Shown here: one piece after another, positions 941-63,248 of the stretch
Layout: every line of letters starts with the position of its first letter
Numbering within the stretch: the stretch's first letter is position 1
DNA from: Thuidium tamariscinum
Taxonomy: Eukaryota > Streptophyta > Bryopsida > Hypnales > Thuidiaceae
Reading direction: 5' to 3'
NCBI GenBank assembly: GCA_947034885.2
Contig: OX344750.2
Coordinates: forward strand, 44,502,821-44,566,820
Length of the DNA: 64,000 bases
Position numbers and translations under genes: made by a program
Notes under the pieces: model-generated
What the model was told of the DNA's origin: nothing
Seen by the model: only the letters and a program-made list of their open reading frames with translations
The model's database searches: none

Positions 941-1300
941 GACAGATTTAGTGACACTCTAGGGACCTGGAATAGGTACAGGGACGGAAATGGGTGTTTC
1001 TCCCTTATGTCTTTAGATGGAAACATTTTTAGTTTATTTTCCATTCAAGGAGAAATAGATGAGGAATGTAACACAAGTCATTTCATATTTTTTAAAGCAT
1101 TATTGAATGAGTTATGAATTTCCAAACAAAATCTGCCATGGGACCCTATTTGTGATCAGTAGGCCTTGAAAACCCATACATGTGCAGTTTCAAAAAAAAA
1201 TATGGCTTGATTCAAAAACTAGTAATACAACATGTGAAAAGCACTAGAAATGGTTTCTGAATGTGTCCCTTTCAAAAACTGAAATGAATTCTTCAATTAA

Positions 1301-2023
1301 CCCTTAAAGGACGGGCCTATGACCACTGGTTGGAAGCCCCCTTGCTGGTCACTCAATTTGATACCGTTCATAAATCAATCAAGTATGAAAATTTTAATTT
1401 TATTTTTCAGAGATGGAAGTACATGTCTTCTGCACTTCACAGAAATTTCAGATTTTTTTGAGGAAAATTGATTTTTATGAGATTTTTTGAAGAAAAAATG
1501 AAGAAAAAATCATAGAAAATAGAAAATTATTTCAAAAAATCTGAAAATTTCACAATGTGTGTAATTGCATAGGCAAACATCACGGTGTAAACTCAACTTC
1601 AATGTACACCTATTTATAGATTGCAGTGGACATTAAAAATGAAGCCAAAATTCAAATTGCAATAAAATATTCAATTTTACGAATTTTCCAAAATTCCAAT
1701 TGGAGTAGAAACTAGAAGAAAAGACCTTCATTTCATTAGTTGGGCTCAAACTCAAAAAATGTCATTTTCAAGGAGAAATTTTAGATTTTGTCAATTTCTC
1801 AAAATACACTAAAATGGCAAATTTTGCCATCCGTTTTCTCTAATTACTTCTCAACTACATGAAAACAAATAGTAGTTAGACTAAAAACTCAATTGGAGAC
1901 TCTTTACAATTCAAAGTGAAAGGTCATTAAAAAAAAGTGGATGAAAAAATTATTGTTCAGGTCCTTTGCTGCCCCCGCAAAGTCATCCGAACGCCAAAAA
2001 TTGGCGTCGGCGTCGCTTAAGGG
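1301..2023. mobile_element. TTAA-flanked non-autonomous DNA element, copy B1 (piggyBac-like)
   Basis: The element is bounded by TTAA at 1297-1300 and 2024-2027. It opens CCCTTAAAGGACGGGCC and closes GCGTCGCTTAAGGG, giving short imperfect terminal inverted repeats that begin CCCTTAA. It is 723 bp, AT-rich inside, and has no transposase. A longer relative lies at 19649-20465 and a 178-bp relative at 8752-8929. CCC ends plus an exact TTAA duplication are the hallmark of the piggyBac superfamily, so that assignment is inferred from the ends only. It sits between two copies of repeat family A. Confidence 0.75.
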
Positions 2024-2030
2024 TTAATCA

Positions 2031-2345
2031 TTACAGTGGAAACACCTAAAAACGTCCAAATAAGGAATTCAGCATAGTCGGAGGCAGCGTTTTCTAAAAA
2101 TGATATTTTTCTAGTATTCGCGAGGGAAAATCATGAATATTCAAGAAAGAAATTAAATTTTTTAGATACAGTATGTAATTTCTACAAATTTTCAAAGTGT
2201 TGGCTCCCTAAACCAGTGGAACCGTCCTATAGGTGCCCTCAAAATTGAACCCTACAAAAATCAGCACTTTGCCAACCAGATTTTCCTACGTGTCCTTCAA
2301 TTGTGTCAGCAAATTACAATGACACATGTGGCAAACACATTAAGG
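2031..2345 (+). repeat. dispersed repeat family A, copy 2
   Basis: The block aligns along its length with 600-940 and begins four bases after the TTAA of element B1. The two copies differ by scattered substitutions and small indels, so the duplication is not recent. Confidence 0.75.
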
Positions 2346-3772
2346 GAACTCTACTGATGCATTTGGGTGAATTTACAATCCACTGCAAAGAACAAGTGCG
2401 GGAATCAGTGTCTTTATTTTAGATTTTTTAACACTTGAAAGAAGGTAGTTCAACAACCATTTTTTATTTTGAATAATATCAGTAAATACTTGCCCACTTA
2501 GTTAGGATTGAAGCCATGTAACTCTAAAACCATCCATTCTAATAGTAAAAATCAAATTTCAGCATGCTTCAATATAATTTACAATTCATTTTCTCACAAC
2601 GAGCTATCCATTTCGGACCTTCCTACTAGGCAATAGTGTTTGTTTTTTTAATTTTAAGGGAATGTGGATTTGGGCTCCAAGTGAGAAGTAAGTGGTTGAG
2701 GTTAGGTGATACTCAAATTTACTTTTGGTGCAATATTTGGCTCCAAGTTAGGAATTAGGCTAAGTTGTATGGCTTCAAAACTAAAATCCAAAAAACATTT
2801 TTGCCAACTATAGCTCTTACATTGGTGTAAAATAGGGCAACCAAGTGGTGCAAAATGGGATGCACATAAATTACGAAAAATATGACTCACAAATTCATGC
2901 ACATGAACTACAACTCATTCATGTACTTGGGTTTCAAAGTCTAATATCTTCCTAATTTATGTGCATGAAGTTTTGAGTGGTTTGTGCAACAAAAATGCAA
3001 CCTCAAAGATTGCAATTGGTAGAAAAAGTTGAGTACAATTGAAAGCAAGAAAATTGTAGCTTCAAAGGAAGTGACAAAACTTGGTGATAGGATGAAGGTG
3101 CCCTTGTATATGTGGCTACAGTCTATACCTATATCTCCAACTTTGGTATATATTAGGCGATTGCAAATGTAAAGTTGTTGAATCAACATCTAGATAGGTG
3201 GCAACAAGTAGCAAATCTTGGTAGTCCTTGTTAAGGTAGTGGCTACTAGGGTGTGATTGAAAATTTATATCTGGCTTTTAAAATTTTTTTTCCTCCAAAT
3301 TTTTCTAAGAGCTTGGTGCAGAAGAACTTTTTTGGGTGCTTTTAGTTTGTTTATTGCTTAGGAAAAAAACCCTACTCGGCAAGTGCAAAAGCCTATATAG
3401 TTTATGAGCTTCCTACCATAGAGGTACCCATTCTTGACCAGGACCCATAGCCAGTAGCCAACATGTAGAGTGCAGCTATTTTCAACCCAAGTTTGGAGTG
3501 TGTTTATTCCTCTATTTCAAGGTTGCACCCCATAAGATCATGACACATGTCTCAAAGTAGTGAGTTCCCTATATTTCCTATCTCTCTACTTGGCAAAAAA
3601 TTCACTTGCTTCATACTACTCCTAATCTGCCTAAAAATTGCTTAAGTGATTGACTATGGGTACCTCTACCTTATATGAGCAAAGATATTTAGGAACAAAA
3701 TACATAGTTGTGCATAAATGTGAATTAAAAAACCTCACACTATTATGAACTTGAAAAAGAACATTATTATTC
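2346..3772. other. intergenic, no gene recognised
   Basis: AT-rich sequence with short degenerate internal echoes (for example ATGCACATAAATTA near 2861 and TTATGTGCATGAA near 2957 in opposite orientation). The short ORFs here have no recognisable domain. Confidence 0.5.
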
Positions 3773-4492
3773 GGTGATTGCAAGAAACACCTGTCCTATT
3801 TTGTGTCACACGGTGCATTCTGATTTGTTTTTTGGTCATAACTTTTGTGTTTTAGCTTCGATTGACTCAAGATTTGTAGGGAAGGTACTCATAACTATCA
3901 TAAAGCTTCCATAATTTTTTCATAATTTTCAAAAATAGTTTTCTATCCAAAAATAGACCCCAATTGGATGTCACACTTGGCAGTTTAGGGGTTTTCAATA
4001 CCTGAGCTATACCTTTTTTTTAATGATTTTGACATGAAATGTGGATGAGATGGTCTTCTAATAGACTTCTATCTTTCTAGGGAAGGATTTTTTTTTAAAG
4101 TTAATTTTGTGAGGTGTGGAGGTCTACAAAGTGAGCTCCCTTTTGCTTGTATTTTGAAACATATAAAATATTATTTTGGTGGATTTTTTTGTGAATGACC
4201 ATCTCCATAAAGTTGTTGAAAATGTCCACCTTTTATTTTTTGAAAATATCTATTTCTACTATTTTTCCCTAATTAAAACATGAAGGTATGTATTTTCTAG
4301 AGGTTTGGCACTTTTCAAGTTCTCCTACTTAGAGAATTTTTCTATCCATTTCCTTTTGTGGAAACCTTCATCTAACAGGTATATACACTATCCATTTTTT
4401 TTAAAAATTTAAAATTAATTTTCTAATTTTAAAGTACTCCCTAAAAAATCAGCCAAACGCAACAAATAGGACAGGTGTTTCTTGCAATCACC
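3773..4492. mobile_element. DNA transposon-like element C1 with perfect 29-bp terminal inverted repeats
   Basis: The left end begins GGTGATTGCAAGAAACACC and the right end is its exact reverse complement over 29 bp. The element is 720 bp and non-coding, and ends 119 bp beyond the P450 stop codon. A second copy of almost the same length is at 60113-60840. I could not fix a target-site duplication, so the superfamily is open. The perfect repeats argue for fairly recent mobility or active end conservation. Confidence 0.8.
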
Positions 4493-8751: not shown

Positions 8752-8929
8752 CCCTTGAAGGACGGACCGGCGGCCACGGAAACCATGCATTTTGATACCA
8801 TGTGACATCACCTACTTTGAAAAAGCCAAATATATGTATTGGAAGTCAAAGTACTATAGAAAATCTTTCCTTTCCACCCCCAATACTGAGGATGAAAAGT
8901 CGCCAAATGTCATCGGCGTCATTCAAGGG
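8752..8929. mobile_element. 178-bp TTAA-flanked miniature element, copy B-mini
   Basis: TTAA at 8748-8751 and 8930-8933 brackets an element opening CCCTTGAAGGACGGACCG and closing CGGCGTCATTCAAGGG. Its ends match those of B1 and of the element at 19649, while the middle is mostly gone, so it is an internally deleted relative. Confidence 0.75.
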
Positions 8930-8933: not shown

Positions 8934-10589
8934 GAGAGAAAAAATACCATAAAAAGTTCACTTGGAACTTTAAAGTGCATTTACAACATGAAAACTTTAT
9001 AAAATGAAATATTGCATGCATCTATGAAATCTATATGAAATATTCTTTACACTCATTGTTGATTAAACATGTATCTTACGTTGTTCCTATGTTATGTTCT
9101 TAGAGAATGTACCGTACATTTAATTTGGACAAAAATCTAGGTGGTTGTATTTTTAATAACTCTGGAAGGTTTCACTATGTTTTCACCAAAAATGCTCCAA
9201 AACTACCATTTCTAGTACATGTACCAAATTTTAGGAAAAATAACTTTTTAGATACATATAACTATAAGAACTTGTAGTAAGATGGTTTAAGACGATGTGA
9301 TAAAATTTCAGAAATTTCTACCATGTGGAGTGCAAGATATTAGTGTTTGAATTGACTCAAATACTTTTTTTTGGCTTTCCAAAAAATTAAATAGTTGTAG
9401 TTTAGAAGGTCATGTTTGTATAAAAAAATGTCCAAAATAGTAATCACTCTTTGAGTGAATTTTTCAAGAAATAGTGCTAGTATGTGAGCATGAAATTGTA
9501 AGTATGTGAGCCTTGAGCATATATACAAGTATATATACTACAACTATTGAAGGTGCTTATAATAAAAACACCTATAATATAGGTATATATAATATAAATA
9601 TACTAAAGTAATAAATTTTTTTTTTAAGAAAGACATTGTATCATAGGTGTATAATATAGTCTTCTAGGCTCACAATCTTGGGCTCACATATTAGCAACCC
9701 TCATTTTTTAAGGTAAGTTGGCTATATGCTTGAAAATTTTCAAATCACTTAGAAATTTACAACATATAGGAAAAAATAGTATATGAAAAAAAAATAGAGA
9801 ATGATTGAAAACACTAAATTATTAAGAATTTGGTTCTAGAATTGAAAAATGTCTATCCCAATGGTTTTAATGTTGTAATAAATTTCTTTATTTTCAAAAA
9901 TATTGAAAATTAAGTTAAATAAATCATAAATGATTTCAAAGTTTGTTTTAGTGTAGAGATTCCTTGACCACATGCAAACTAAGACTCCTCGTAAATTTCA
10001 TTTCATTAACCAAATTGGAATGATTTAAAACTTTCCATGTACATAGAAATCTAAAAAATCAATTTCAAATTTATATTTATTAAAAAATTGATGCTTCTAA
10101 ATTTTTTGACTTGCCCGGGCTACTTAGAGATCAATGATAATTACATGTCAAAAAAGGAGAAAATTAAGACTATTTCCAAATAAAATTTTCAAAATTCTAA
10201 AGACACTCCTAATTTAACCTTCTTTGTTGATTCCAAACCAATGAAGCGTAGAGCCCTAAAACACAAGGATGCCCTTTTCTATTAACATTTTGTCTAAACT
10301 ACCTCTACATTTTCAAGCCTTCTAACTTTTGATGAAGGCATCCAATTTGAAAAAATTATATTCTTACAAATTTTATTGAAGTGTGCATCCATGGTAAAAT
10401 TTCACTTTCATCCATTCAAAAATGACTTTGTAAGAACTTTCCTAAGCCTTTTAAAAAGTCTAACTATAGTTGGAGTTAAATTGGTTGAAGGAATGAATAT
10501 TTGGGTGACATTTGTATATTTCTTTATGAAATTTTGGGTATATTGAATTACAAATGTCTCTAAAATATTGTTTATTTCAACATAACTTT
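8934..10589. other. AT-rich intergenic; contains a remnant of a TTAA element (about 9150-9365)
   Basis: 9150-9365 matches the reverse complement of 40440-40662, the right end of another TTAA element; shared words include CTATGTTTTCACCAAAAATG and AATTTCAGAAATTT. The rest has no gene, repeat boundary or RNA I can support. Confidence 0.55.
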
Positions 10590-10597: not shown

Positions 10598-10786
10598 CAC
10601 TACAAGAGAAAGGGGTGTTTTAAGTAGTGTCCTAGACATCACGTCTTTTAAGTAAGGTTTTAAGTAAAATTTTACTAAAAAGACTATCTTTTTAGTAAAA
10701 TTTTACTTAAAACCTTACTTAAAAGACATTACTTAAAAGACGTGATGTCTAGGACACTACTTAAAACACCCCTTTCTCTTGTAGTG
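10598..10786. mobile_element. 189-bp palindromic CACTA-like MITE with ACA target duplication
   Basis: It begins CACTACAAGAGAAAGGGG and ends with the reverse complement, flanked by ACA at 10595-10597 and 10787-10789. CACTA (EnSpm) elements have CACTA ends and make 3-bp duplications. Almost the whole element folds on itself; the right arm has an extra direct duplication around ACTTAAAAGAC. No coding capacity. It could yield a long hairpin RNA if transcribed. Confidence 0.9.
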
Positions 10787-19648: not shown

Positions 19649-20465
19649 CCCCTAAACGATGGGCCTATAACCATTGGTTTCAAGACTCTTCCCCGGTCAC
19701 TCAATTTGTTACCGTTTTAGAACCAGTCATGTCTGAAAATTTTTATTTTTATTTTTAAGAGATAAAAGTACATGTCTTCTATACTTCACAGAAATTTCAG
19801 ATTTTTTTGAAGAAAATTGATTTTCATGACAGTTTTTGAAGAAAAAGTGAAGAAAAAACAATAGAAAATAGAAAATAATCTGAAAAAATCTGAAAATTTC
19901 ACCATGTGTGTACATTATAGTGACAAACATTATGGTTCTGGTCGGGTGTTGAACGAATGTCGTCGGACGATGCCAACCGATGGAGTGTTTCTGAATACTC
20001 AATTTGTGTGGGACGGAGCAACGATGCTAATTTCAACTTCCGTGTACACCTATTTCTAGGCTGTAGTGGTCATTAAAAATGCAGCCAAAATTCAAATTGC
20101 AATAAAACATTCAATTTCCCAAATTTTCCCAAAATTCCTATTGGAGTAGAAACTAGAAGTGAGGACCTTCATTTTGTTAGTTGGGCTCAAATTCAGAAAA
20201 TGTCATTTTCAAAGAGAAATTTCAAATTTACTCAATTTCTCAAAATACACTAAAACAACAAATTCTGCCATCCGTTTTTTGTAATTACTTCTCAACCACA
20301 TGAAATCAAACATCAGTCAAACTAAAAACTCAGTTGGACACTCTTAGTAACTCAACATGCAAGGGCATTAAAAAAAATACGGATGAAAAAACTACTGTTC
20401 AGCTCCTCTTTTGGCCCACTGCAGTCATCCAAACGCCACAGAATGGCGCTGGCATCACTTAGGGG
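19649..20465. mobile_element. TTAA-flanked non-autonomous DNA element, copy B2 (piggyBac-like)
   Basis: TTAA at 19645-19648 and 20466-20469. Ends are CCCCTAAACGATGGGCC and GGCATCACTTAGGGG. The interior is colinear with B1 (1301-2023), sharing GTCACTCAATTTG, GTACATGTCTTCT and the CCAAACGCCA...TGGCG hairpin near the right end, with about 110 bp extra in the middle. No ORF for a transposase. Confidence 0.75.
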
Positions 20466-30516: not shown

Positions 30517-30787
30517 CACTAGAAGAAAAACGCAGAAAAACAGGTTTCAGCAAACAGATCACGTCAGGTAGATTGTGTTGAGACTGCGTTGCTAAAAACG
30601 CAGGAAAACACTGAAAACACTGAAAAAACGCAGAAGAAACGCAGAAAAACACAGAAAACGCGTTTTTTTGTGTTTTTTTTTGTGTTTTTTTGTGTTTTTT
30701 CCGCGTTTTCAGCAACGCAGTCTCAACACAATCTACCTGACGTGATCTGTTTGCTGAAACCTGTTTTTCTGCGTTTTTCTTCTAGTG
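30517..30787. mobile_element. 271-bp palindromic CACTA-like MITE
   Basis: It begins CACTAGAAGAAAAACGCAG and ends with the reverse complement CTGCGTTTTTCTTCTAGTG. AAA flanks both sides (30514-30516 and 30788-30790), consistent with a 3-bp duplication, though A-runs make this weaker than at 10598. The arms match over more than 75 bp (CAGTCTCAACACAAT...CACGTCAGG), and the centre is a low-complexity AAAAC/GTTTT stretch. Confidence 0.85.
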
Positions 30788-34021: not shown

Positions 34022-35020
34022 TGTGCCCCCGATTCGTCACCGAGGACTCACGGGTTCTTTTTTCAAATTCCTACATAATCTAAGGCATAATTAGGCTCGT
34101 AAAATCCACAAAAGGGCATTAAACCAGTAATGAAATTACACATACCAATGTGCCATTTGGTCATTAGAGGGGGTTTAGGATAGTTTGCATCCAAAGCGGG
34201 CCTTATCTTAGCTAAATAGACGCCAAACTGATAGTGATGTGCAGGATTACGGTAAGAAGCCTAAAAAGGCCCTAGCTAGGTTAGGAAGTCCTCATGGGGG
34301 AATCTAGGAGGAATCCCCTACTCCCCATAGCATCGAAGAGAATACGGACGGAATACTAACCTTGAAATGCAGGTACCGGGCGATTTCCTAATTCTAGGAG
34401 CACGCAGTGGGGATGCAGATTTGCATCCAAGTGGGGGGATCCCATGGGTGGTCCCCTCCAAAGTTTGGGAATTTTCTGACATTGTTTGGATATTTTCCCA
34501 GACGGTCAACCGCACTGGACTTTGGGTGGGAATTCGAAAGAATATCCCAAAGTGCGGTAAAATCCCACTAAAAATCCGGCGAGGCGGTCTCACACCAACG
34601 GAGCGCTTCCTCAAGTTTCAAGACAAATCGATAGTTGGAAGATCCCGAATCGGTGACATTCCTCTCCAATTGACAATTCAAATGACGGAAGCTGCAGTTG
34701 ACCGGCGTACCGGGGGGCCATACGACATCGGATCGAGGCTTACTTTGGATCTATTCCTACCCCCTCTATCTATTTAAGAGATTGGTGAAGGTTTGGGGTC
34801 CAAAATTGTCAAACTCCAAAAGTTGGGAATTTATCTCAATTTTGACCCCAGCTTACACTAAGATTCTTTGAGATTTGGGACATAGTTCAAGGGGTGAGTG
34901 GTTCCATTCAGGCTAATTGTGGCCTTCCGGACCCAATGGCGCAATCCGTTTGCCATTCGGAGCTAAACTCCAAAAGTTAGCCTTTTGGGGACAACACATG
35001 GAGGAGAAATTGGGGTTTAA

Positions 35021-35944
35021 CCCCTAAAGGACTGAGGCATTTTCTGGCTTGAAAACCACTCAAAACTGCCATGTTTGCTACTTCCTCCCAAAAAAGCAAA
35101 AAAAAGCAATTTTTTTAGAATCTAACCGTAGGATCTTGTAAAATACTTGTTTGAGATCATGCGGTAAAAATTTCATGAAGTTTGACCGTACGGATTGGAA
35201 GATATTAGCATTCAAAGCTGAAAAAAGAAGTTTTTTTGAACTCTGACTTGTACTTTCAGATGACTTTGACTGCCATTTGTTGAATTTTCTTGCACTATGG
35301 ACCATGAAGTTAAAATTTTTTATGTTGAACATTTGAGTTGAGAATTAGGGGAAAAAATTTCAAAAAATAACTACTTGATTTTCATTCATTAAAAAATTGT
35401 TAAGTAGAAGTAGGTCCAAGATTGAACAAAACACTATGTTGTTAATAACTTTAAGATGTAATTGGAAAACCATGATCCCAACGGTGAGGTTGTTTTTGCA
35501 TACATCCTAAACCCTATCAAAAAAGAAAATTTGAAAAATTTGAAAAATTGCATTCAAAAATGAATTCTATAAGTTATTTTTTGAAGAAGGTACTTAGATT
35601 GCCCGAAATACAAGATTGTCCATAACTTTCTCATTATTTGTCCAAATAAAATGAACCAAAGCTTCAGATGTAGAACAAAGCATAATCTTTGAGATAAAAA
35701 ATAAAAAATAAAAAAATAATTTATTTTGTGTTTGTTTTTTTCTGCCCGACGAACTGCTTTTTGGACTTAGAATGGCATAACTTTTGCTTCCAAGCACCAA
35801 TTGAAATAAAAATTATATTTTTGGAAAGCTAATCTGATTTCCTATCTTCAAAAAAAGTTTCAAAAAATCATAGCAAAAATTCAGGTTACACAAGCTTGCC
35901 CAAAATTCCACATGTCCCCCGAGGGAACTTCAATCCTTTAGGGG
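35021..35944. mobile_element. TTAA-flanked element, copy B3, inserted in LTR-like copy F1
   Basis: TTAA at 35017-35020 and 35945-35948; ends CCCCTAAAGGACTGAGG and the matching CAATCCTTTAGGGG (15 of 17 positions pair). 924 bp, no transposase. The related LTR-like copy F2 has the uninterrupted site GGGGTTTAAGG at the same place, with TTAA at 48931-48934, so the duplication and both boundaries are supported by an empty site. Confidence 0.85.
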
Positions 35945-36343
35945 TTAAGGCCCCCCAATGCTTTTTAGGGGAGTTTGGGCCCCAATGGCCGTGGGGAACG
36001 TGTAGGGAACGTGTGGGGAACTCCGGGCACATGTGGGAGCAAGTACTACCTCAAAAAATTAGTGGAGGTGGCTCCAAGTGCTTGGTGTAAGTAATTTCAA
36101 ATTAAGTAGGTGAGAACACATGGGAACTTCTCCCATGTGAGAACTTGTAGATTTTAGGAAAGGTAAATTAGGTGGTTTTGCAAGTTCTTGTAAGGTTAAG
36201 TAAGATTTGAATTTCTCAATTCAAATTGTATAGATTTTAGGTGAATAGTTAGATTTGGGATTGGTAAACATGTACACGGACCTCCTAAATTCCCTCATCT
36301 AGTTATTCTTAGTAGATTAGGGGGGGGGTTGCTCCCTTTTGAG

Positions 36344-36350
36344 TATAAAA
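36344..36350 (+). promoter_or_regulatory. TATA box of LTR-like copy F1
   Basis: TATAAAA followed by GGGGC and a (CT)n tract. The same arrangement is found on the minus strand at about 48520-48527 in copy F2. Conserved between two diverged copies, so probably the element's own promoter. Confidence 0.6.
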
Positions 36351-37719
36351 GGGGCGGCATTCTCCTCTCATTCTCTCTCTCTCTCACTCCTATCCATTTA
36401 AGGGAGGAGCACTATTGGGCCCGGGTTATGCCGGATTTCCTTTGCTTTTTGATGCCAAAGGAGCCTTTGATAGTTTTGAGGTTGTTGCACCTTTGGCTTT
36501 TGTGGTTTGCACTTGGGGACTTGAGACCCCCCCAAGTCTTGTTGGAACTTTTGTTAATTGATGGTGGTCCATCTTTTGTATTGTGAAACAAGTGAAAGTT
36601 GTTGTGGGAGAGACTAGTGAGGAACCAAGGGGTGACTTGGGAGGTGACTTTGAGAGTATGTTTACAAATTGTATCTACCTTCTCCCCCCCTTCTCTTGTG
36701 CACAAGGCTAGGCTAGTTCCATGAGGGACGGCGAAGCCTTGACTCTCCTCTAAACACTTAGCCTTAGTAAATAGGAAGCCCCCTCTCTTCTCCCCCTTCT
36801 CTTGTCTACGGGAATAGACTAGTTCCATGAAGGACGGCGGAGCTATGGCCCCCCCAAGTCTCTAGGCAAATAGAAGTCTTAGTCAAGTGTCAAAAATACA
36901 TCCTCACGGCGAAGCTTTGAACCCCCTAAGTCTTAGCAGGGTGTCAAATGCAAGTTCCTTTAAGATAACAACAACGTTTAGTTTCCAACACCTTGGAAAT
37001 TAACCCAACGTTTAGCTTCCAACAACTTAGTAAGCAAGCCCTCACTTAGATTAGGAAAACTAGTGTAAACTCAAGCACTTAGCCTAGCACCTTTGCATTG
37101 CATTGAGAGTAAAAAATCAAGATTCAGCCCAAGTCCAGAGCCAACCCAGTCTAGAGCCAGCCCCAGCCGGAGCCAGTCCCACCGGAACTAGCCCCAACCG
37201 GAGCCAACCCCGCAGAGCCGCCCGCGTGGGTATTGGGGAGGGGGGTCCGCGGGTGTCCGTGGGTATTGGGGGGAGGGCTACAGCAGTGGGATTAGCCCCC
37301 AAACCAAATACAAAAAGCGGGGTAGTTAAATTAGAATAGAGATAGGCTAGAGGGGGGGGTAGCCCATAAATTAAATACAACTATTGGATAGTTAGAATTA
37401 GGATAGAGATAGGCTAGAGGGGGGTTAACCCACAAATTAAATACAATTGTTAGAATGATAGCAATAGTGAGGGAAAGGTTGGGCCCAAATTACAACCAAG
37501 CATACAACGTAGCCGGGAGCGCGAAATGGCGATGGTACGGGACGGAGAAGGTCCGGCGTGGGACATACACGGAACGGAGGTGGGTCTCTAAAACTCTCCC
37601 CTTGAATTAATTAGTTGATACCATTAGGAATTCATTAGTAGGAAAAGGTTAGCATCCCAAGTGGGATTAAGGTCCGGCAATTAGCAACCACAATTAGGAG
37701 AATAACCACAACTAGAATA

Positions 37720-38879: not shown

Positions 38880-41470
38880 AAAGGATAAATATTCTCCCAA
38901 TTTGTAATTCTTCTTTGTGCCTTCAACCCACCAAATTGATCTTCACTGCAAACCAAATCGAATTGGCCTTTGCACCCTCAATCAGCCTTACAGCATTTCC
39001 AAATTGGTTTGGATCTTCATCTCACTTCCACTTAGTCGCACTTGCCAACCAAATTGAGTTGTTTCCTTCAAAGGGACCACAACTCCAAGCTTCCACCAAC
39101 TTGAGATAATAACTTTAATTCTAACAACCTTCACTCAATTAATTCTTCTCCTATTTGGATTTAATCTATTTTTTTTAAATTATTTTTATCATTCACTCCT
39201 CTTAGGCTATACATCATCGTTTCCTTAGAGACCAACTTGATCTCAATTCCTAATTGGTAATTGATATTGATTCCAGATCAATTAGGAAATTAGTCATTCA
39301 AATATACCCAAATTGAATTATTTTCAACTTGGATCACTCAACAGCCAACTAATTGACCAATTTGGTACTCTCAACTACCTTCCACCAACCAACTTATCAG
39401 CTTGCTAAGTCACTCTAAATTGGATTTCTCACATCACATCAAACAATTTTCAATTTGGCATACATGCCATAACATCCCAACATGCACATTGTATTACATC
39501 CCACAGCTAACAGCCTTAACACACACCAACTAGGGTTGCAACATTAATCAATTTCATTAATTCTATTCTCGAATTAATTTCTCGAATTAATTTCTCCAAT
39601 TTGAATATTTATAACAATTATCACCAATTGGATCCAATCTCTCAAGAATTAAACATAAAATTCACAGCACAAAACACCAAATTGATTTTCAATCATTCTT
39701 CCGTAAACCAAATTGGTGATTAAATCACCATTACAATATAGTCTTAACCCCTAAAGCCTTAAACTGCGTTTTTTGAGAATATAAATTTTTTGGGCAACTC
39801 ACTATAGATGGAGTTTTTATTTTATTTTCTTTAAAATTTTGATACAACATGTGCTTGAGGAGTATCTTTGAGGCCCAACAATTTTCATAACTCTTGACTA
39901 CACGGTTAAAAAGTTATGGTAGGATATGTTGTTTTCTAGGCAGATAAAATTTCTTCAAAAATTACTTTTAAGAAAAATAAAAATTTGAAATTTGTTTACT
40001 AGATTTTTATCTAAAAGTAAAGCTTTGAATCAATCCATTTCAATCAATGAGTCAAAAGTTATGAAGATTTTGAGTTTGGGGTAGTTTGTGGCCAATTACA
40101 AAATCTCTACAATACAAAAAAAGTTTGAAATTCATCATTCAATTCAATTTTTTATATTTTTGGAAAAAAACAAAAAACAAAAGGTGTAGATTGTTTATTA
40201 CAACATTTTAACCATTGGGATTGAAAATTTTCAATTCCATGAATAAAATGTTCACAATTTAGTATTTTGGCTCATTTTTTACTTCTTTCTACTTCTTTTT
40301 TTTTCCTATATGTTGTACAATTCCAAATGGTTTGGAATTTTTTGAGAATGTAGCCAGCTTGCATTGAAGTATGAATTCAAAGTGTAACCACCATTTTGAA
40401 TTTTTTTCACAAAAATGTGACCTTGTGAAGTGTAGCTACTCGGATTTTCGCTAGGATAAAAAAACAATTTTTGTCAATTCAAATGCTTATATCTTGCAAT
40501 CTACATGGTGGAAATTTCTGAAATTTTTTCCACATGTTTACAAACCACCATAATACAAGATTCTATGGTTACATGAGTCAAAAATGTTTTTTTTTTAAAA
40601 TTGCACTTGTATGGCAATTTTGGAGCATTTTTGGTGAAAACATAGTCAAAAACCTTTAGGAATTAAAATATAGTTTTTCTGTCTTTCATCAACTAACTCC
40701 ATAGTTTTCACAATCTCCCATTTGGAATCATGTTTAAAATTCAACTTTCGAACACCACTGATTCACTCAAATTATTTCCATCATAGTTCATCACCACATC
40801 GTAGACTTAAAATTCTACAAGCTACTTTTGTCCCCCAATTTCTACACTCCTAATTGGCAATAGTTCTCTCTCAACTACTCTAATTAGGAAATCACTTCCA
40901 CACAGATTTTACACTCTTCTACCACCTGCACTGGTTCTCCAACTTGGACACAGATTCACATATACATGCTGATCCACACAACACACATTAATACACCCAA
41001 AACTAACAAATTTCCCACTTCGAAATACACACACAAAACACAAGTACGTAACCAACTTCGATTGGGACTTGCAGCGGACACTCTCATACTAGGTAAAAAT
41101 CAAATTGAAAAACACAAACAAATAGGAATCCCAAAATTCAGTTACCAAAACTACCCCGACTTGGAACCTAACTACTCAGCAAACCAAATTCAAATCGCAA
41201 CACAACTGTTGCTAGCCTTCTAATCCCATTTTGAAATTGACAAGTGGCCACAACCTCCAACTACTCCGTATTGATAAACAAAAATCCAACTTGGATATAC
41301 AAAAGATCTTCCAATTAAGATCTCACTCGACCCCTAATTCAGCCATCCAACTAGCTTCACCTAACCCACTTGGCACTCGGCATACCATCGTCACATCCAA
41401 CTTGGAATTTATACAATGAAATTAATTGATTCAAATTTGCATTCCCAATTGGTAAAAAGACATATAAAAT
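38880..41470. repeat. CCAAATTGG-rich region, split by a TTAA element
   Basis: About 17 occurrences of CCAAATTG, CCAATTTG, CCAATTGG or close variants in 38890-39740, and about a dozen looser ones (AACTTGG, CTAATTGG) in 40740-41470. Spacing is irregular (15-100 bp), so it is not a simple satellite. The insertion at 39748-40662 divides it. Confidence 0.6.
39748..40662. mobile_element. TTAA-flanked element, copy B4
   Basis: TTAA at 39744-39747 and 40663-40666. Left end CCCCTAAAGCCTTAAAC; right end ACCTTTAGGAA, where the usual GGGG has drifted. 915 bp. Its right part is repeated in reverse at 9150-9365. No transposase. Confidence 0.65.
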
Positions 41471-43194: not shown

Positions 43195-44670
43195 CAACTT
43201 TAGGGGGACCCCAAGTCAAATCGGCCATATCTTTCTAAAAAGGCCCTATGTTTGGGCTTTTTATTACTCCATTATGTTCACAACACTTGAAGATGGGGGG
43301 TAGGTACCTTTTAATCTTTAAAATTCATAAACCCTAAGAAGATAGCAATCCCATTTGGAACTTTTGAAACGCTTATAACTCCTAACCCTAAACTCATTTC
43401 AAGAATCCAACACCACCATTGGATTCCTAATACCCTCAAATAGGGGGGTAGGTCAACTCTAAACTCAGAAATACCCTAAACTAAGCAAAGTCAACTCACC
43501 CTCTAAAAGTCAATGTTGCTATATCTCACAAACGATGAAACTATTAGGGCTTTTTATTGCACCAATGAAACGGCAATAGTTGAAAATTGGGGGGGGGGGG
43601 GGAGCCAAAATCCTAGCCTAAAAAAACATGCCAATATTTCGGGGACACCCTTGTAACCCTAAACCCTTCTAATACTTAGTGCCTAATATTTACAGAGACG
43701 TCATTCTGGTGATGAATACGTGAGGAATTACCTAAAAGGCCAAACTGATGCGGACATCAAATTTTCAGCACATTCTAGGCGCGGTCTGACGCTAAAAAAA
43801 GCCCAAAACATGTAGTAAGTGAAATATTAATTTATTTTGTTATGTGAATGTTAATTATTAGATGATTTAATATTTCTTGTAATGCATTATCTCTCTATCC
43901 TAGTGTCAAAGCCGATGGAGCGGTCCCGAGGAGAATACAAATGCAGCGAAACGTGTAAAACGCGCCGCATGCACCAGCGAGCAAGCAACATCAAGCCTCA
44001 TCCTATTTTGGCCCAAATACCTCATAACTCATCCATGGAACATCCAATCTTTAAGCGCCACGTCATTTTGTGATATTAGGAAAAAATTCTACAACTTCAT
44101 CTTTTCAAAAATGCAATGCAAATGTAATTCCAAAAGTCAAACTACCCTAAAGTCAACATATAGGGTCAAAATAGAAATGGCTATTTTTAAACAAACAAGG
44201 TATTTTTAGAAACCTCATCTAAAGCCCCACCCAAAACCACAATCCATATTTCAAAATTCAAAATATTCAATCCACAAACGCAAAGTCAAACTAAAACACC
44301 CAAAAGTTAATGTTGTTGTATCTCACAAACGGGCCTACTCGTTAGGGATTTTATTTCACCATTGCATTCGCAACGTCTGCTAATGGGGGGGGTAGGTCTA
44401 ATAAAATCACTACCCTCCAAAATAGAGTTCCTATAGGACACACATGTAACCCTAAACCCTTAAACCCTAAACCCTAAAACCCTTTAAACCTTAAATCCAT
44501 CTACAAATAGGGGGTAGTTTCATTCAAAACTTCAAAACATTTAAAAATAAAGAAAGTCAAATCACATTTGAAAAGTCAAAGTTGTTATATCTCGCAAACG
44601 GTGATACTTTTAAAGCAAATTTTTGCACCATTGGATTTGCAACATGTGAAAATGGGAGGGTAGACCAAAT
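43195..44670 (+). repeat. field of G-tract repeats (family H)
   Basis: Successive blocks end near 43303, 43453, 43602, 44394, 44517 and 44665, with a later one at 46520-46622. Each carries ATATCTCACAAACG, then TTTTATTGCACCATTG-like sequence, and ends in a run of 5-14 G followed by TAGGT or similar. Telomere-like AAACCCTAAACCC runs lie at 43651-43675 and 44450-44492. Confidence 0.65.
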
Positions 44671-44712: not shown

Positions 44713-46280
44713 TGTAATCCATAACTTCCACATAGAACATCCAATCAAGGAGTGCCATGTCATTTGGAACCCTGTGAAGTACGGTGCACTTGGATTAAAA
44801 TCGCCCTTCTCCCTGCCAAAGCCAAAAAGCCACCCCTTACATTTTACTTACGATAAATTTTTATTTTTAGCCAAAGATAAACACACCACTTTGAAGAAAC
44901 TTTTGTCTACTTTCCAAAAGTATCTTTGATTCATCCATCCCATGCTTCAAATAGCGGCAATGGACGGATGAAGTTCCAATGTTCAAACTTCATCCGTCTA
45001 TAATTGGCATATAGAATGTCCGATCATGGAGTGCCACATCATCTTGGAACCACGTGAAGGAGCCCTACGACGCCATGCACTTGAAATACAATCGCCCTTC
45101 TCCCTGCCAAAGCCAAAAAGCCACCCCTCACATTTTACTTACGGTAAATATCTATTCTTAGCTAGAAGAGAATGCACCACATCGAAGAGGCCTTCATCCT
45201 CTTTCCAAAAGTGTCTTACATTCATCCATGCCATGCATAAAGTAGCGGCAACGGATGGATGAAGTTTGAACCTACAAACTTCATCCGTCTATAATTGGCA
45301 CATAGAATGTCCGATCATGAAGTGCCACATCATCTTGCAACCCCGTGAAGGAGCCCTACGACGCCATGCACTTGGAATACAATTGCCCTTCTCCCTGCAA
45401 AAGCCAAAAAGTCACCCCTCACGTTTGGACATTCTATGTGGCACTTCATGACCGGCACATAGAATGACGTGGCACTTCATGACTGGACATTCTATGTAGA
45501 ATGTCCAATCATGAAGTGCCACGTCTATTTTTAGCCAAAATTGAATGCACCATATCCAAAAGGCCTTTGTCCCCTTTCCAAAAGTGTCTTTGATTCATCC
45601 ATCCCATACTTAAAATAGCGGCAACGAATAGATGAAGTTTGAACTTTCAAACTTCATTTGTCCATAACTTCCACATAGAATATCCAATCGTGAAGTGCCA
45701 CGTCATCTTGGAACCCCATGAAGGAGCCCTATGACAAGGTGCACTTGGAATACAATTGCCCTTCTCCTTGCCAACGCCAAAATCCCACTCCTCATACTTT
45801 ACCTATAGTAAATTTCTATTTTTAGTCAAAATTGAATGCATCACATCCAAGAGGCCTTCGTCCCTTTTCCAAAAGTGTCTTTGATTCATCCACCCCATGC
45901 TTAAAATAGCGGCAACGGGTAGATGAAGTTTGAACTTTCAAACTTCATCCGTCCATAACTTCCACATAGAACATCCAATCGTGAAGTGCCACGTCATCTT
46001 GGAACCCCATGAAGGAGCCCTACAACACGGTGCACTTGGAATACAATCGCCCTTCTCCATGCTAAAGTTGAAAAGCCACCCCTCACGTTTTGATAGCTAT
46101 AAATTTCTATTTTTAGCCAAAATTGAATGCACCATATCTAAGAGGCCTTTGTCTCCTTTCCAAAAATGTCTTTGATTCATCCATCCTATACTTAAAATAG
46201 CGGCAATGGACGGATGAAGTTCCAAAGTTCAAACTTCATCCGTCCATAACTACCACATAGAATGTATGATCATGAAGAAA
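44713..46280 (+). repeat. 291-bp tandem array (about 5.4 units), each unit with a hairpin
   Basis: The GATGAAGT word recurs at 44967, 45258, 45631, 45922 and 46213, spacings 291, 373, 291 and 291. Each unit has a hairpin (GATGAAGTTTGAA..TTCAAACTTCATC type), then ACATAGAATGTCCAATC, GAAGTGCCACGTCATCTTGG, CGCCCTTCTCCCTGCC and TAAAATAGCGGCAA. The long unit has about 82 extra bases (about 45430-45520) made of inverted copies of its own ATGAAGTGCCACGT and ACATAGAATG words. No protein is conserved across units. Confidence 0.85.
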
Positions 46281-46849
46281 AACATCATTTCACACTCATG
46301 CAAAGAAAATCTATAAATACATGTGATTTAAAACCTTTAGGTACCCCACACCAAAAAGTCAAACTACCCCAAATCCCCATATAAGGCCAAAATTCAAAAT
46401 TGCTATTTTTAGCCAAACAAGGTATTTTTGGAAAGCTCTTTCCAAGCCCTTTCCAAAATGGTAATCCACGTTTTCAAATTCTAAAAAATGAATCTACAAA
46501 TCCAAAGTCAAACCCAAACAACCTAAAGTCAAAGTTACTATATCTCACAAATGGTGAACTTATTAGGGTTCTGATCAACGTTTTCATGATCGCAAGGGTC
46601 ACAAATGGGGGGGGGGTAGGTTCAATAAAATCAACAATAAGAATGGCCATATCGGCATATCCCTAGGGACACCCTTGTAACCCTTAAAACCCTTGAAAAA
46701 TCACTCATAAAACACACCCTAAACAACTAAATCGGAAGAAAAATGACCCAAAATAAAATCACCCACCACCCCACAACATTCTAAAATCAACAACTCAAAA
46801 TCAAATAATTCTAAGCCCCAAAATCCACCAACAAACCTCTAAATCCCGA

Positions 46850-47220: not shown

Positions 47221-49927
47221 TACTATTCCCTAATTGCATAGTCAACTTAAATTAAGAACAAAGCTTAGGGTTAAAAACCCACCTCCAATCCGAGTGTAGC
47301 TCCCATTGGTTTTTTCCGTTCCACTCTATATCCATAGCCATTCTTTTGTTGAGTTAATTGGGCTCCACTTCCAAATTACTTTCTTCCTCTTTAGATTATC
47401 TTCCTATTAATTGGCTCCCACCTCTAGGTCATCCTCTTCTAAATTCCTATTCTAATTTCCTAATCTACTCTCCTATTTTAATTTCCTATTCTAATTTTAC
47501 TTGTCTTTTTTCCTAATGCCTAACTACCCTAACTATTCTATTTTTGCTCCTTAGACCCCTAGACTAACAACACCTTAATAACCCCAATTACAGCACCTCA
47601 ATACTTCGTTTACAACACCCCGATACCCGCGGTAGCCCGATACTTGGTCGGGGGGATTCTCGTCGGCGGGAAAACTTTGACTAGCTAGGGCTTTGGTTTA
47701 CCTAGGGAGCTCCGATCTAGCTGGGGAGCTCCGGTTTGGCTGAGGGCCTTCACGGCCTGTCGGCCTCAACTAGGGCCTTCTCTGTCTGGACTGGAGCCTT
47801 CATAATCTGAACTGGACCTCCGCGGTTTGAACTAGAGCTTCACGATCTAGAGTGTTGGCTGAATGCCTTCTAGTTTCTAATTAACTATGCAAAATTAGTT
47901 AAATATAAGGTTCTAACATCCCTCTACTTCAAGGGACTAACTAGCACTAGATTGCAAGATGTTAAACGTTGAATTAGTTCCAAACATGTTGGAAACTAAA
48001 CGTTGAGAGTAGCTCAAAGAAAGTTATTTTTGACACCCTGCTAAGATTTAAGGGGTCCAAAGCTTTGCCGTGAGTTTAGTAAATTTAACACTTGACTAAC
48101 ACTTGTGATTTTTTAAAAATATAGGGAAGTCAAAGCTCCGTTGTTGTACATGAAACTATTATAACTCCGTGAATAAGGGAAGAGGAGGAAGAGAAGGTGG
48201 TACAAAAATTGCATACACTCGTAAGTCACCTCCCCCTCAATTCATCCTAATTTTCTTCTACATCACCATTCAATAGCTCACAAGAATACAAAGTTTCTTG
48301 AATATCAATTGCATTAAGTATTACAAACCCTTGGTGGGGGCTCAAGTCTCCAAGGTGCAAAACACAAGTGCTAAGGGGTATAAAACCCCGAAAAAACTAT
48401 CAAAGACTTTTTTAGCATAACAAGCTAAAGAAAATCTAGCATAACTCAGGTTCAATAGTATTCCCCCCAAAATGTGGAGAGTGAGTAATAGAGAGAGAAT
48501 GAGAGGAAAATGTTGCCCCTTTTATACCCAAAAAAGAACAACCCCCCCTTAATCTACTAAAAAAAATTAGATAAAGAAATGAAGCTAAGCTTAACATGTG
48601 TCCTCTCTCTAAATCTAATTATCTATTTAGGATCTATGTAATTTGAATTTAGAATTAAAATCTTATCTGACCTTTACAAAAAATTGTATTCTATCTATCT
48701 ATTTTTACTTTCCCAAAATCTACAAATTCCCACATAAGAGTAGTTCCCATGTGTTCCCACCTACTTTTTACTCCAAATTCAAATTTACTTACACCAAACA
48801 TTTGGAACTTCTACCACCTTCTTTTTGAGGATGTACTTGCTTCCATGTGTTCCCGAAGCTCTCTACACATTTCTCACAAGTTTCCTACAGCCATTAAAGC
48901 CAAAATCTCCTAAATTTACATCAGAGGACCTTAAACCCCACTACTTTCAATATGTGATGTCTCTAAACTCTAACTTTTGGAGTTTGACTTCAAATTACAA
49001 ATGGATTGTGCCATTGAGTTTGGAAGGCCATAATTAGTTCACTGAGAACCACCTACCCCTTAAACTATGCCCTAAATCTCTACGAAATCTAGTGTAGGCT
49101 AAAGCCAAAGTTAGGATAAATTTTCAACTTTTGAAGTTTAACTTTTTTGAACTCCATTCCTTCACCAAGCTCTCAAGTAGATAGAGAAGGAGGGTAGGAA
49201 TAGACATAAATTAGGTCCTGATTTGATGTCGTTCGCTCCCAATACGCTGGTCAACTTTCAATACCGTCCTTTAAATTACTAAATATCGAGGGAGTTCTTC
49301 GATTCAGGGTCTTTTGCTTATCGAAATGCCTTGAAACTTGGAGGAGTGCTTTGTTGGTCTGAGATTGCCCAACATAATTTTTAGTGGGATTTTACCGCAA
49401 CTTGGGATATTCTTACGAATTTCCACCTAAAGACTACTGTGGTTGATTACCTGAGAAATTATCCAATAAATCTTGAAAAATTCCCAAAATTCGAAGAAAA
49501 CCTCCCATAGAATGCATTTAAGTGAATGTGAACTCACATTTGTACTATGTGCGCCGAAAAATAGAAAAATGCCATATACTTGACATTTAAAGTTAGTATT
49601 CTACCTCGTATTCTCTTCGATGCTTTGGAAAGTGAAAATCTCATTTTAGATTCTCCTATCTTCTAACTCAATATGGCCTTTTTTAAACTTCTTACCCTAA
49701 TCTTCCACATTACTCTTAGTTTGTCGTTGTTTGACCAAAGTACTACCCATTTGAAATACATACTTATCTAAACCCCTTCTATTGACCAAATAGCATATTG
49801 ATATGTACGATGCCGATACTAATTTTATCTTCTTTTATGAGTTTTATGGACCTAATTGTACATTGAATTGTATAGGAATCTAAAAAAAACTATTCATGAG
49901 TCCCTGGTGACAAATCGAAGGCTCACA

Positions 49928-54044: not shown

Positions 54045-54204
54045 TTAGTATTACGTCTTCTACCTCCAACACCACGCCCTGTACTTCCAACACCACGTCT
54101 TCCACTTTCAGCAACACGTCTTTCACTCCCAGCAACACGTCTTCCACTCCCAGCAACACGTCTTCCACTCCCAGCAACACGTCTTTCACCTCCAATACCA
54201 CGTT
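54045..54204. repeat. 21-bp minisatellite
   Basis: About seven units of the type ACGTCTTCCACTCCCAGCAAC, period 21 with a few substitutions. On the minus strand it reads as a seven-residue Arg-rich repeat (RRVAGSG). The period is a multiple of three, so it fits expansion inside a former coding frame. Confidence 0.85.
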
Positions 54205-55705
54205 TTTTACCTACTACATGTCTTCTTCCTGTACCTCGCCCTTTCTCAACAGTAGATCCTCGAACGTTCACATTAACCATTCTAACTTCCGATCTATATA
54301 TACAATTGCCAGAGTGCAGTCTTGGAACTCATGAGCTTGCCCTTGCTTTCGTTATTGTTTTGTGTGCTTCAACTTCACTTTAATTTAGAATATTTAAGAT
54401 AAATTCTTCATCATTTATCCTTTTCTTTTATTGCATTGATACTTCCTCTACACCTATCTCCGTTAATGGTGCAATAATAGGTGCACTGCCTTCAACAACC
54501 ACTACTTCAAGGATGTTACTTTCCCCCAACAACTCTTCCATTACATTTTCTATTGCAAATACTATACGCTCCCGATAAATTATTTGTCTTTGTGAAATAC
54601 CTCTTTTCTCCAAATGATTAACACTTTCTTCTTTAGTAGATGCACGCTTCCTACTTCGTTCAGGCACTAGGATCCAATTCTCCTTCAAAAAAGTTGCATA
54701 TAATCAATACAATTAATTTGTATCCTCTGGTTCCTTTAGAGAAAAACGCTCTCCAATAACAACATGATTGTTTTTTTCAAGATCCTCATAACTTCGAATT
54801 TTATATAAACAGAGCAAGCTCGAAAAATTTGCTCTGGGGTTGACACCTTGAATTTATGAATACATTCTTCTCTTTTACGCTTCAGATCATTAGACATTGT
54901 CTTCCAAAACTTAACTAAAGTCTTCAAACCATATATAGGTGAAATGGTTAAAACTAACTCCGGTGGAACAGGCGTCATCATAAATTTCTTCTTCAACTTG
55001 TACTTCTCAAACACCGTCTCAGTTTTGCTTATTCATATAGTTAATCCTTCATTAGCTATTCTTTTAAAGTCTTCAATGATTGTATACATTTACCTAAAGG
55101 AGCCCAATATCTTCTTTCTTCAATAGAAAAGTAAAAAATCCATAAACTTCGATTCCTCACATCATTGACTTCTAACCACCACCCGTGATCCAACCATGTG
55201 GAATGCACCTTTAGGACCACGATGAACTGCGAAATATAATGCAACTGAAATTTAGTACTTTTAATTTTTCTATGACACTGTAAAAAAAATAATTAATATT
55301 TGATGACTATAATAGAATTTTTTAGTCAATTGAATTAAAATTTTAGTACATTACATATATAACAAAATATTTAATATGAGCACTCAATTACCCACCTATA
55401 GCAAACGAGCTAATACAATCAAGTTCTTATTTTTAAGCTTTTAAATTAGGTGTTTATGCGTCACTCCATTGTGCCTTTTGAGTAATAAATTTTTCTATAG
55501 ATTGTAAGTGTTCAAGAGTTAAAATAACCTTAATTTATCTTAAATTAGATTTTTTTGAAATTTTTAATGGGTCCTAATTAGGCCGCTTTGATTATTTAGT
55601 CAAGTACTGCTTAGACTAAAGTTCAATGCATATTCTTATAGATCATTTCCTAGTCGTTCCAGTATGATAAGACTCAAGTTATTAAGACTATCTTAGCAAA
55701 AGTTA

Positions 55706-60004: not shown

Positions 60005-61830
60005 TTGTTACACTTCTCTAAAAATACAAAAAAATGGATGTAACAATAAAATCTTCTACTTCACTTGTCTAAAATCATGTGGTAAAATTTTCATGAGGTA
60101 TGACCATATAAAGGCAATTGTATGAAAGACTTGTACTATTTTTCATCACATGTCTCATGTTGATCTATTTTTTGACCATAACTTTTGTATTTTTGCTCCA
60201 AATGACTCAAGATTTCTAGAAAAGGTACTCATAACTATCATATAGCTTACATGAATTTTTGATAATTTTCAAAAATATTTAATATAAAAATAATATTAGT
60301 GATTGAATGTCACATATGACAATTTGGAAGTTCTTAGTACTATGGAATACCGTTTTTTTAATGATTTTGAGATGAAATTTGGATGAGATGGTCTTCTAAT
60401 AGACTTCTAGTTTTAAACACAAGGATTTTTAAAAATAGTTAATTTTATGTCATGTGGAGGTCTACAAAGAGAGCTTCATTTTGCTTGTATTTTGAAACAT
60501 ATAAAATATTATTTTGGTAGATTTTTAACTAAATGACCATCTCCATAAAATTGTTGCAAATGGACACTTTTTATTTTTTGTATTTACTTATTCTTACTAT
60601 TTTTCCCTAATTAAAACATGAAGGTATGTATTTTCTTAAGGTTTGGCACTTTTCCAGTTCTCCTACTTAGAAAATTTTCCTATACAATTCCTTTTGTAGG
60701 TACCTTTGTCTTAAAGGTGTATATAGAAGACATATTTTTTTAATTTAAAAATTATTTTTCTAATTAAATAGTACTCCAAAAAAAGTCAGAAGTACTATTG
60801 CAAAATGCAACAAATAGTACAAGTCTTTCATGCAATCACCCACAAATTAGAAGATATTTGCATTCAAAGTTGGAAAAATAAAATTTTGAATGTTGGCCTA
60901 CAATTTCAATGACTTTGACCACTATTTGTGGAAAATTTATGCACTATAGACTTTGTTTTTTATGTTGAATTACTCTTAAGAACCCAAGGGGTTAGGACAA
61001 AATACAAATGTGATAAAATACAATTTCTATAATTTTTTTGAAGTTAGCATCAAAGAAAATTATGTGAAGCACAAAAAATAGAAAGTATCTATATAGGTAC
61101 AGTTATAAAGTTGTTTTTAGATTATCTTCAAATGAATTTTCAAGATATAACTTCAAAAAAATCACCAAAAATACAATTTTCATCTTAAATAGCACTTGAA
61201 GTTTTATTTGAATTAGTCAAAACTATGATTTCTATTGATTTGTGAAAAAATGAAAAAGATCTAGTAATGAGAGCATCAACACTTTCTCCAAATATTAAGT
61301 TTTTCAACACTATGCAATTATAAACACTTCATGATATTTTTCTAATAATTTCTTTTTGGCCATATTGATCTTAATTAGTTTTGAATGTAAATGTTGAAAG
61401 ACAATCTATTTTTTTAAAGTAAAGCAAAAAGAAATTATGCCCAAAAATTATACCCAAAGTAAGGCAACAACCAAAAATGGTTGCTTGAGTACTTAGGGGT
61501 TAACAAATTGTTAAGTAGAAATAGGTTGAACAAGAAAATAAATTATTAATAGTTCTAAGATGTAATTGAAACATGTAAATTCTAATTGTGTGATTCTTCT
61601 AGGAAGAAAATTAAACCTTGACAAACAATTTTTTAGAAAATTTGTGAAAATTGCATTCAAAATGAAATCTAATATGTTACTTTTTCAAGAAGTTTCTATA
61701 ATTGCTCAATAAACAAGATTGTCTATAATTTTTTATGTTTAGTCCAAATACAATTAATCATAGCTGTAGACAAGTGGATTTTTGATCCCTTACAAGTTAT
61801 ATTTTAATTTCATTTTTGCAAAAATTTTCA
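60005..61830 (+). mobile_element. diverged TTAA-element relative (B5) split by element C2 and further sequence
   Basis: Pieces at 60005-60112, 60841-61000 and 61504-61830 follow the interior of B3 (35021-35944) in order: GGTAAAA(A/T)TTTCATGA, GAAGATATT(A/T)GCATTCAAAG, AAATTGTTAAGTAGAA and ACAAGATTGTC(C/T)ATAA. Between the last two lies sequence ending ACTTAGGGG plus TTAA (61500-61503), the right end of another TTAA element. Outer ends are not resolved. Confidence 0.5.
60113..60840. mobile_element. DNA transposon-like element C2
   Basis: 728 bp, colinear with C1 (3773-4492). Ends GGCAATTGTATGAAAGACTT and the reverse complement of GGTGATTGCATGAAAGACTT, 26 of 29 positions pairing. No coding sequence. 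It interrupts element B5. Confidence 0.75.
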
Positions 61831-62693
61831 CATAATAATTTAGAAATGAACAAATGAGAGTAAATTTTATGACAAAAATTACAAAAATTTGCACAAGAAA
61901 ATTCAAATTTGAAATTCTATACATAGACCTCAACACCTTATCACCTTGCATATAGGATATTCAATATTCTTTTTTAAATGGCACATCATAAAAGAACGAG
62001 TTAATTTGTTTACATTACTTTTGAAATTTAGAGGCATGCAATGTGGCTTAAGAATTTATGCTAGTATAATAATATCATGTCTTATTATAAAACAATGGAT
62101 GGAGGAAACTACTTTCAAGGGCTTCATCAACCATGGTTTATCCATAACCAAGTTCACCAACTATCTACTTGCCAATTGCTTCTTTAGATCAATACACTCA
62201 ACTTCTTCATTAATTGATGCATTTTCAGAAACTTCACTATTGTATTTTTTCCATATTATTAATTCATTTTCATTAATTCAGCAAATTTTCTAATAAAATA
62301 CAACATAGATTCCATTGTGTATTTATACTTTTCTTGCATTCTTACTATACTCTTCTTTAAATGTTGTCACCTATTCACAGAGAATAATTCTAGAGTCATC
62401 TACCAATAGTTCTTCAACTTTCTTTCCATAATAAGATATTTGGAATGAATCTTGGGGGATAAAAAAATAATATCAAGGTACATAAAGTCAACCCACATAG
62501 TTCCCTAATGCATCTTTATTTTAGGGCTTCTTTTAGTCATTCTTAAATGACATTAAAAGTTTTAACTAGACAACCAGATTGTTTATTTTTAATGCATAAT
62601 TACAAGAAAGAGCTTGCAAACCATAATAAAGATTTTAGCACTATATAGAGGGACAATTTGAAGAACAAGGGCAATTTTAGAACACTTGAGTTC
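61831..62693. other. AT-rich intergenic, nothing recognised
   Basis: The short ORFs show no domain. Confidence 0.4.
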
Positions 62694-62697
62694 TTAA

Positions 62698-63248
62698 TCC
62701 CTAAAGGACCAAGGCCATTTTTCTACAAAAAAAAATACTTAAACTCTCATTTTATAGCAAAGAGAAGAAAAATTTGGAATTTTTTTTTTTCGGCATCTAA
62801 CCTTAGATTCTTATACCTAACTAGTACAAAAATTCGTGGATATCCTTTTTAATAATTGTAAATATTGCATTTAGATATGAATTCAATAAATTATTTTTCA
62901 AGACAATGATTCAATTGTCCAAGAAACAAGATTGTTCATAACTTTCTCAAAATAAATCGAAATGTATCAAAACTTTTCATGTAGGCAAAAATATAATCTA
63001 TGAGAAAAAAATAAAAAATAAAACTTTGATTTTAAAAATTATTGTGGGCTACTCCTCTCTTTTGTTTTGAGTTTATTTAGGCATAAATTTTTATCTTGGA
63101 TACTAATTGAAAAAATATAAATTCATATGAAGCTAATCAATTTTTCTATCTTCAAAAAAAAATCCAATAATCAAGACAAAAATTAAGACAATAGGTACCT
63201 ATATAAAATCTCATTTGTTCCCTAAAGGGACAATGGTTCTTCAAGCGT
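62698..63248. mobile_element. TTAA-flanked element, copy B6 (right end degenerate)
   Basis: TTAA at 62694-62697, then TCCCTAAAGGACCAAGGCC. The interior tracks the right half of B3 (ACAAGATTGT(T/C)CATAACTTTCTCA; ATAATCT(A/T)TGAGA). The right end (TTCTTCAAGCGTTAC) is a drifted version of the usual TTTAGGGGTTAA. Confidence 0.6.

Follow-up and report, generated by a model that had tools for sequence, protein, structure and literature searches.

TTAA-flanked elements in a moss genome: probable short members of several piggyBac families

A stretch of 64,000 nucleotides from the moss Thuidium tamariscinum (contig OX344750.2, positions 44,502,821 to 44,566,820; hereafter the window) carries short elements that begin with CCC, end with GGG and stand between two TTAA tetranucleotides. 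Which transposase moved them? TTAA flanks and CCC ends recall piggyBac, whose apparent recent mobility in a land plant is surprising, the superfamily being best known from animals. A reading of the window from its letters alone (the sequence-only reading) had proposed piggyBac-type miniature inverted-repeat transposable elements (MITEs). We conclude that the elements are very probably MITE-like: short, non-autonomous copies that belong to several piggyBac families of the moss genome (363 Mb, 19 contigs).

In the mechanism that we propose, full-length elements at other loci of the genome would supply a DDD piggyBac transposase that binds the CCC ends together with the adjoining internal bases. 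The enzyme would excise the element at TTAA and reinsert it at a different TTAA, leaving this tetranucleotide on either side. We infer that such a transposase moves the short elements. piggyBac transposition involves a hairpin on the TTAA overhang and seamless excision, and the chemistry of movement in the moss is presumed to follow that of the superfamily.

TTAA flanks in the window and across the genome

The window was scanned for TTAACCC...GGGTTAA pairs spaced 100-1500 bp apart, with at most two mismatches in the 10-bp ends. Exactly four pairs were found, corresponding to the elements that start at 1301, 8752, 19649 and 35021, each with CCC...GGG ends and TTAA on both sides, whereas 200 dinucleotide-preserving shuffles of the window contained none, which rules out a chance origin. 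The sequence-only reading had named these four copies, and the scan recovered them at exactly the same coordinates (Table 1). It had also described a fifth copy, starting at 39748, with TTAA on both sides and one end drifted, which is indeed the case for the right end, and three degenerate places (9150, 60005 and 62698), which proved to be remnants, one of the 39748 family and two of the 35021 family. Its grouping of all the elements into one family was rejected by sequence comparison, which separates four families with a common end motif: family 1 (1301 and 19649), family 2 (8752), family 3 (35021) and family 4 (39748). Families 3 and 4 are alike mainly over ~140 bp, at 72% identity, and no similar copy of 8752 was found elsewhere within the window.

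The TTAA flanks of families 1 and 3 were followed through the whole genome. For family 1, 40 of 3,232 candidates were scored, giving 40 near full-length places including the window's own; the other 39 are 91-95% identical. TTAA is present on both sides in 28 of 30 inspected loci, or in 25 of 27 when each of three pairs with shared flanks is counted once. The two exceptions are locus L023, with a perfect TTAG/TTAG duplication, and L003, with CTAA/CTAG; both TTAG and CTAA also occur as rare piggyBac duplications in animals, according to the available excerpt of PMC10813416. The exact 25-base left end of family 1 is preceded by TTAA in 75 of its 77 occurrences in the genome (97%). In family 3, TTAA flanks both sides of 18 of 21 aligned stretches from 20 loci, one short partial match in L055 having been dropped beforehand; the misses are L060 and L061, in each of which one end has drifted, and a second, diverged copy within L063. 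Its exact 15-base ends are preceded by TTAA at 434 of 458 places (95%). All these rates lie far above the background, since TTAA starts at 0.8% of the window positions. For family 4, 40 places were scored, and 39 of them are relatives with 85-90% identity over 836-915 bases.

Some elements are stacked end to end on one common TTAA, as at L053:2821 (...TTAGGGG TTAA CCCAGG...), L044:217 and L072; the TTAA of the earlier insertion seems to have been the target of the next.

To find sites without the element, the two flanks of an insertion were fused across a single TTAA copy and matched against the DNA of the window and of the collected loci. This gave ~45 spanning matches, of which 17 alignments, for six insertions, were drawn. 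The four site columns are free of gaps in 16 of these 17 alignments and carry a one-base gap in the remaining one, and five of the 17 relatives read TTAA. One of the five lies inside the window and is the clearest empty site, an inverted relative of the 35021 site (Table 1). It is part of a large diverged inverted duplication (34722-37031 and 47946-49232, 73-88% identical in pieces). A four-base site is what TTAA predicts and is at odds with a duplication of two or three bases.

This length bears on the proposal that the elements are PIF/Harbinger (Tourist-like, TTA/TAA) or Tc1/mariner (Stowaway-like, TA) MITEs whose duplication was extended to TTAA in AT-rich surroundings. Both are standard plant types, as far as the excerpt of PMC10004981 goes, and TTAA contains TTA, TAA and TA. 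Nevertheless, a three-base TWA or two-base TA target does not account for a four-base site that stays gap-free in nearly all alignments, for the TTAG/TTAG duplication or for TTAA at 95% and 97% of the exact genome-wide ends of families 3 and 1, and the ends of family 1 match those of piggyBac elements, as described below. We therefore reject this origin as extremely improbable.

piggyBac transposases and the ends they share with the window elements

The sequence-only reading had called for a DDD-type piggyBac transposase in the same genome, and such enzymes are encoded there in elements with ends matching 1301 and 19649. The PF13843 (DDE_Tnp_1_7) profile places at least 116 matches above its cut-off, with a best E value of 5.7e-80; the count is a lower bound, as scoring covered 116 of the 659 first-look candidates. 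Stops are present in many of these 116 places. Five frames out of five match PF13843 in Pfam with E values below 1e-78. No match to PF13843 was found in 14 control genomes, which appear prokaryotic (LHC rings occur among them only in Synechococcus) and are thus uninformative for plants. Among the open stretches of 25 codons or more within the window, no transposase frame was detected; the closest transposase place noticed, C2:44474707-44475855, lies 27 kb before it.

By sequence, the only convincing matches among solved structures are piggyBat (1e-27) and 6x67 (9.3e-23), which we take to be the piggyBac transposase of Trichoplusia ni. Asp268, Asp346, Asp447 and Asp450 of the T. ni enzyme, the first three being presumably its catalytic residues, align with D644, D749, D865 and D868 of the L042 frame, and these four positions are invariant in all six frames that we chose for alignment from the available loci. 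The same six frames have invariant C962, C965, C976, C981, C985 and H990, which agree, as a residue pattern, with the C-terminal cysteine-rich domain of piggyBac transposases. The five other frames are only 28-66% identical to the first, and several deep piggyBac lineages therefore coexist in the genome. Such divergence suggests long residence or several arrivals, not one recent transfer.

In the autonomous element of L042 and L051, the transposase-3' end begins CCCTGAAACGCCGGGC and the opposite end CCCCTAAACGCCGGCAGCGCC. A profile was built from the five 3' ends visible in the loci (L031, L033, L035, L041 and L042), TTAA excluded, and used to score both strands of the window (127,936 positions). 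The 3' profile scores highest at the left ends of 1301, 19649 and 8752, with 27.4, 24.3 and 23.7 bits, the next position reaching 16.5; when the first four columns are omitted, these left ends still rank second, first and fourth, respectively. For the opposite autonomous end, 19649 and 1301 come first and second with their right ends (33 and 32 of 41 bases, the next 23). The 1301 element is thus bounded by a left end of the transposase-3' type and a right end of the transposase-5' type. As a result, the earlier assignment to piggyBac-type MITEs is largely supported: the link to a transposase is shown for family 1, at both ends, and for 8752, at its left end, whereas no autonomous partner was found for families 3 and 4. 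The two outcomes that the sequence-only reading had held to speak against piggyBac, TTAA at chance level and an autonomous partner of another superfamily, did not appear.

Several observations weigh against a piggyBac origin of all the window elements. The right end of 8752 matches the autonomous end in 22 of 41 bases, which is the chance level, and the ends of 35021 and 39748 are not among the top positions of the profiled autonomous ends in the window. None of 26 scored transposases lies within 70 kb of an exact family 3 end, in a search by exact matches that covered C1 together with the initial 26 Mb of C2, with 100 of the 434 places listed. Family 1 itself shares only ~32-45 terminal bases with the autonomous stretches compared, and its direct parent may therefore be another lineage. 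The TTAA flanks of families 2 and 4 are known from their window copies only. As to the empty sites, 12 of the 17 relatives read other bases than TTAA; all of them are diverged (70-84% identical), and at such a distance they are uninformative about the original target sequence. Finally, the three alignments for L066 have gaps of one base or more a few bases from the site.

For families 3 and 4, these observations raise the alternative that an unrelated TTAA-specific transposase of the Kolobok or Sola3 type moved them, with families 1 and 2 alone belonging to piggyBac. Kolobok and Sola3 share the preference for TTAA. No piggyBac with CCCCTAAAGGACTGA ends was found, and the perfect inverted end of family 3 is longer than that of family 1, both in line with a separate transposase. 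On the other hand, the two families stand at TTAA like family 1 and start almost as it does (CCCTTAAAGGAC versus CCCCTAAAGGAC), and the several piggyBac lineages of the genome differ in their ends yet begin with CCC. We consider a separate transposase improbable, and the TTAA together with the CCCCTAAAG-type start common to families 1, 3 and 4 points to piggyBac for the latter two. The far ends of the L032, L034 and L040 lineages were not found, apart from a candidate CCCCTAAGTTCCC end for L040.

Near-identical autonomous copies and other features

Across the genome, the L042 element's exact 3' end occurs 11 times, and 12 exact copies of its 5' end adjoin TTAA. Eleven pairs of these ends enclose exactly 5,088 bp, with TTAA after the right end in all eleven, while the twelfth 5' end adjoins the L033 transposase. 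A comparison over 3,984 bp covered nine of the eleven, with L042 as reference: the eight others differ from it by one or two bases, and the nine have nine different flanks, all at TTAA. In this family, TTAA is present at 9 of 9 3'-side ends seen and at 11 of 11 paired 5'-side ends. A second lineage, L036 to L038, is at least 99.68% identical over 4.1 kb; in L038, the one copy read, CCCTTAAATGACCC ends stand at TTAA on both sides, ~5.6 kb apart. Two of its near-identical copies, L036 and L037 (C8:23933884 and C8:23941055), lie in opposite orientation ~7 kb from each other.

To judge from their sequences, these intact-looking, near-identical copies seem to have been mobile recently, and piggyBac may still be active. 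That the 5,088-bp family is a native moss piggyBac that is still moving and that, with its sister lineages, it moves hundreds of MITE-like copies has, in our estimate, about an even chance of being true. A competing account holds that the piggyBac copies are silent and that the near-identity of the 5,088-bp elements reflects an ended burst, segmental duplication or gene conversion in place of ongoing mobility. The stops in many of the transposase places agree with it, and two of the eleven copies stand outside the comparison; however, segmental duplication fits poorly with nine different TTAA flanks around copies one or two bases away from L042, and all eleven elements have the same exact length with TTAA after the right end. 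We regard this account as rather unlikely.

Table 1 Elements, remnants and empty site of the window (window coordinates)
Feature	Position	Strand	Description
Family 1 non-autonomous piggyBac-type element, 723 bp	1301..2023	+	TTAA at 1297-1300 and 2024-2027
Family 2 short non-autonomous element, 178 bp	8752..8929	+	TTAA both sides
Family 4 degenerate remnant, two pieces	9170..10078	-	Match to 39748 family, reversed
Family 1 element, 817 bp	19649..20465	+	TTAA both sides; 83% identical to 1301-2023 (two pieces)
Family 3 element, 924 bp	35021..35944	+	TTAA both sides; CCCCTAAAGGACTGA-type ends
Family 4 element, 915 bp	39748..40662	+	TTAA both sides; drifted right end
Empty-site relative of 35021 site, diverged (73%)	48782..49079	-	Flanks continuous across single TTAA
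Family 3 degenerate pieces	60063-60108, 60846-60969, 61500-61765 (within 60063..61765)	+	Match to 35021 family
Family 3 degenerate remnant	62694..63187	+	Left end TTAATCCCTAAAGGACC at 62694; 62847-63187 matches 35021 family

An Rfam search of the window gave no match. Long near-perfect hairpins with arms of 64-204 nt are present at 24-483, 10598-10786 and 30517-30787, and are possibly foldback elements or sources of small RNA. A tandem array with ~291-bp spacing and ACTTCATCCGTC-type inverted motifs occupies 44718-46407; a short run of telomere-like CCCTAAA units stands at 44460-44500, away from any chromosome end, and a 21-bp tandem repeat at 54053-54241. Elsewhere in the genome, the plant light-harvesting family has 49 matches. 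The light-harvesting gene of L076 matches best chain 9 of 7xqp and 8htu (389 and 388 bits, among 60 of 265 matches shown), followed by chains of 9vfj at no more than 343 bits, mostly long chains with several stretches, the rest of those shown reaching at most 217 bits. We take chain 9 of both structures to be Lhcb9 of the moss Physcomitrium patens; Lhcb9 is a moss protein, and the match accordingly indicates a moss host.

Comparison with known piggyBac systems

To our knowledge, demonstrated activity of the piggyBac superfamily comes from animals, and non-autonomous piggyBac copies occur in insects. Elements like piggyBac have been said to occur in "fungi, plants", in the excerpt of PMC8086355 that cites Bouallegue 2017. 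In angiosperms, PiggyBac is one of seven MITE superfamilies according to the part available of PMC10004981. The superfamily is marginal in Stipa, with 1 piece of 75 bp (excerpt of PMC8319324), and in the fern Ceratopteris, with 1,230 pieces amounting to 122 kb (excerpt of PMC6890710). The moss-genome paper PMC10619864 was set aside as a piggyBac report, the word "piggybacking" being used in another sense in its available text. No report of piggyBac in a moss was found in the open-licence literature, covered mostly through titles and the starts of abstracts, which is weak evidence of absence. Thus, piggyBac-type MITEs are already known from angiosperms, and the notable points here are the moss host, the abundance of the elements and their apparent youth. 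If the 5,088-bp family and its sister lineages are indeed at work, they would constitute a functioning piggyBac system in a land plant. Plant-adapted transposases could be drawn from such a native, apparently recent lineage, and its existence would mean that land plants can be hosts in which the superfamily flourishes.

The window elements resemble the angiosperm piggyBac-type MITEs in being short and in having been assigned by their ends and duplication, with the difference that a transposase with the same ends is present here in the same genome. For insect piggyBac MITEs, as in Helicoverpa, MITEs and piggyBac are named together in the same papers, to go by the available parts of these, and the hosts are animals. 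The moss elements have in common with the piggyBac superfamily, as known from piggyBac of T. ni and piggyBat of Myotis, the PF13843 domain, the DDD residues, the TTAA target and the CCC-type ends. They differ from animal piggyBac in their host, in element lengths of 5,088 bp and ~5.6 kb and in open frames that span 408-1,214 codons at the listed places, several of them with long N-terminal parts, and the similarity of the moss transposases to the animal enzymes is local and partial.

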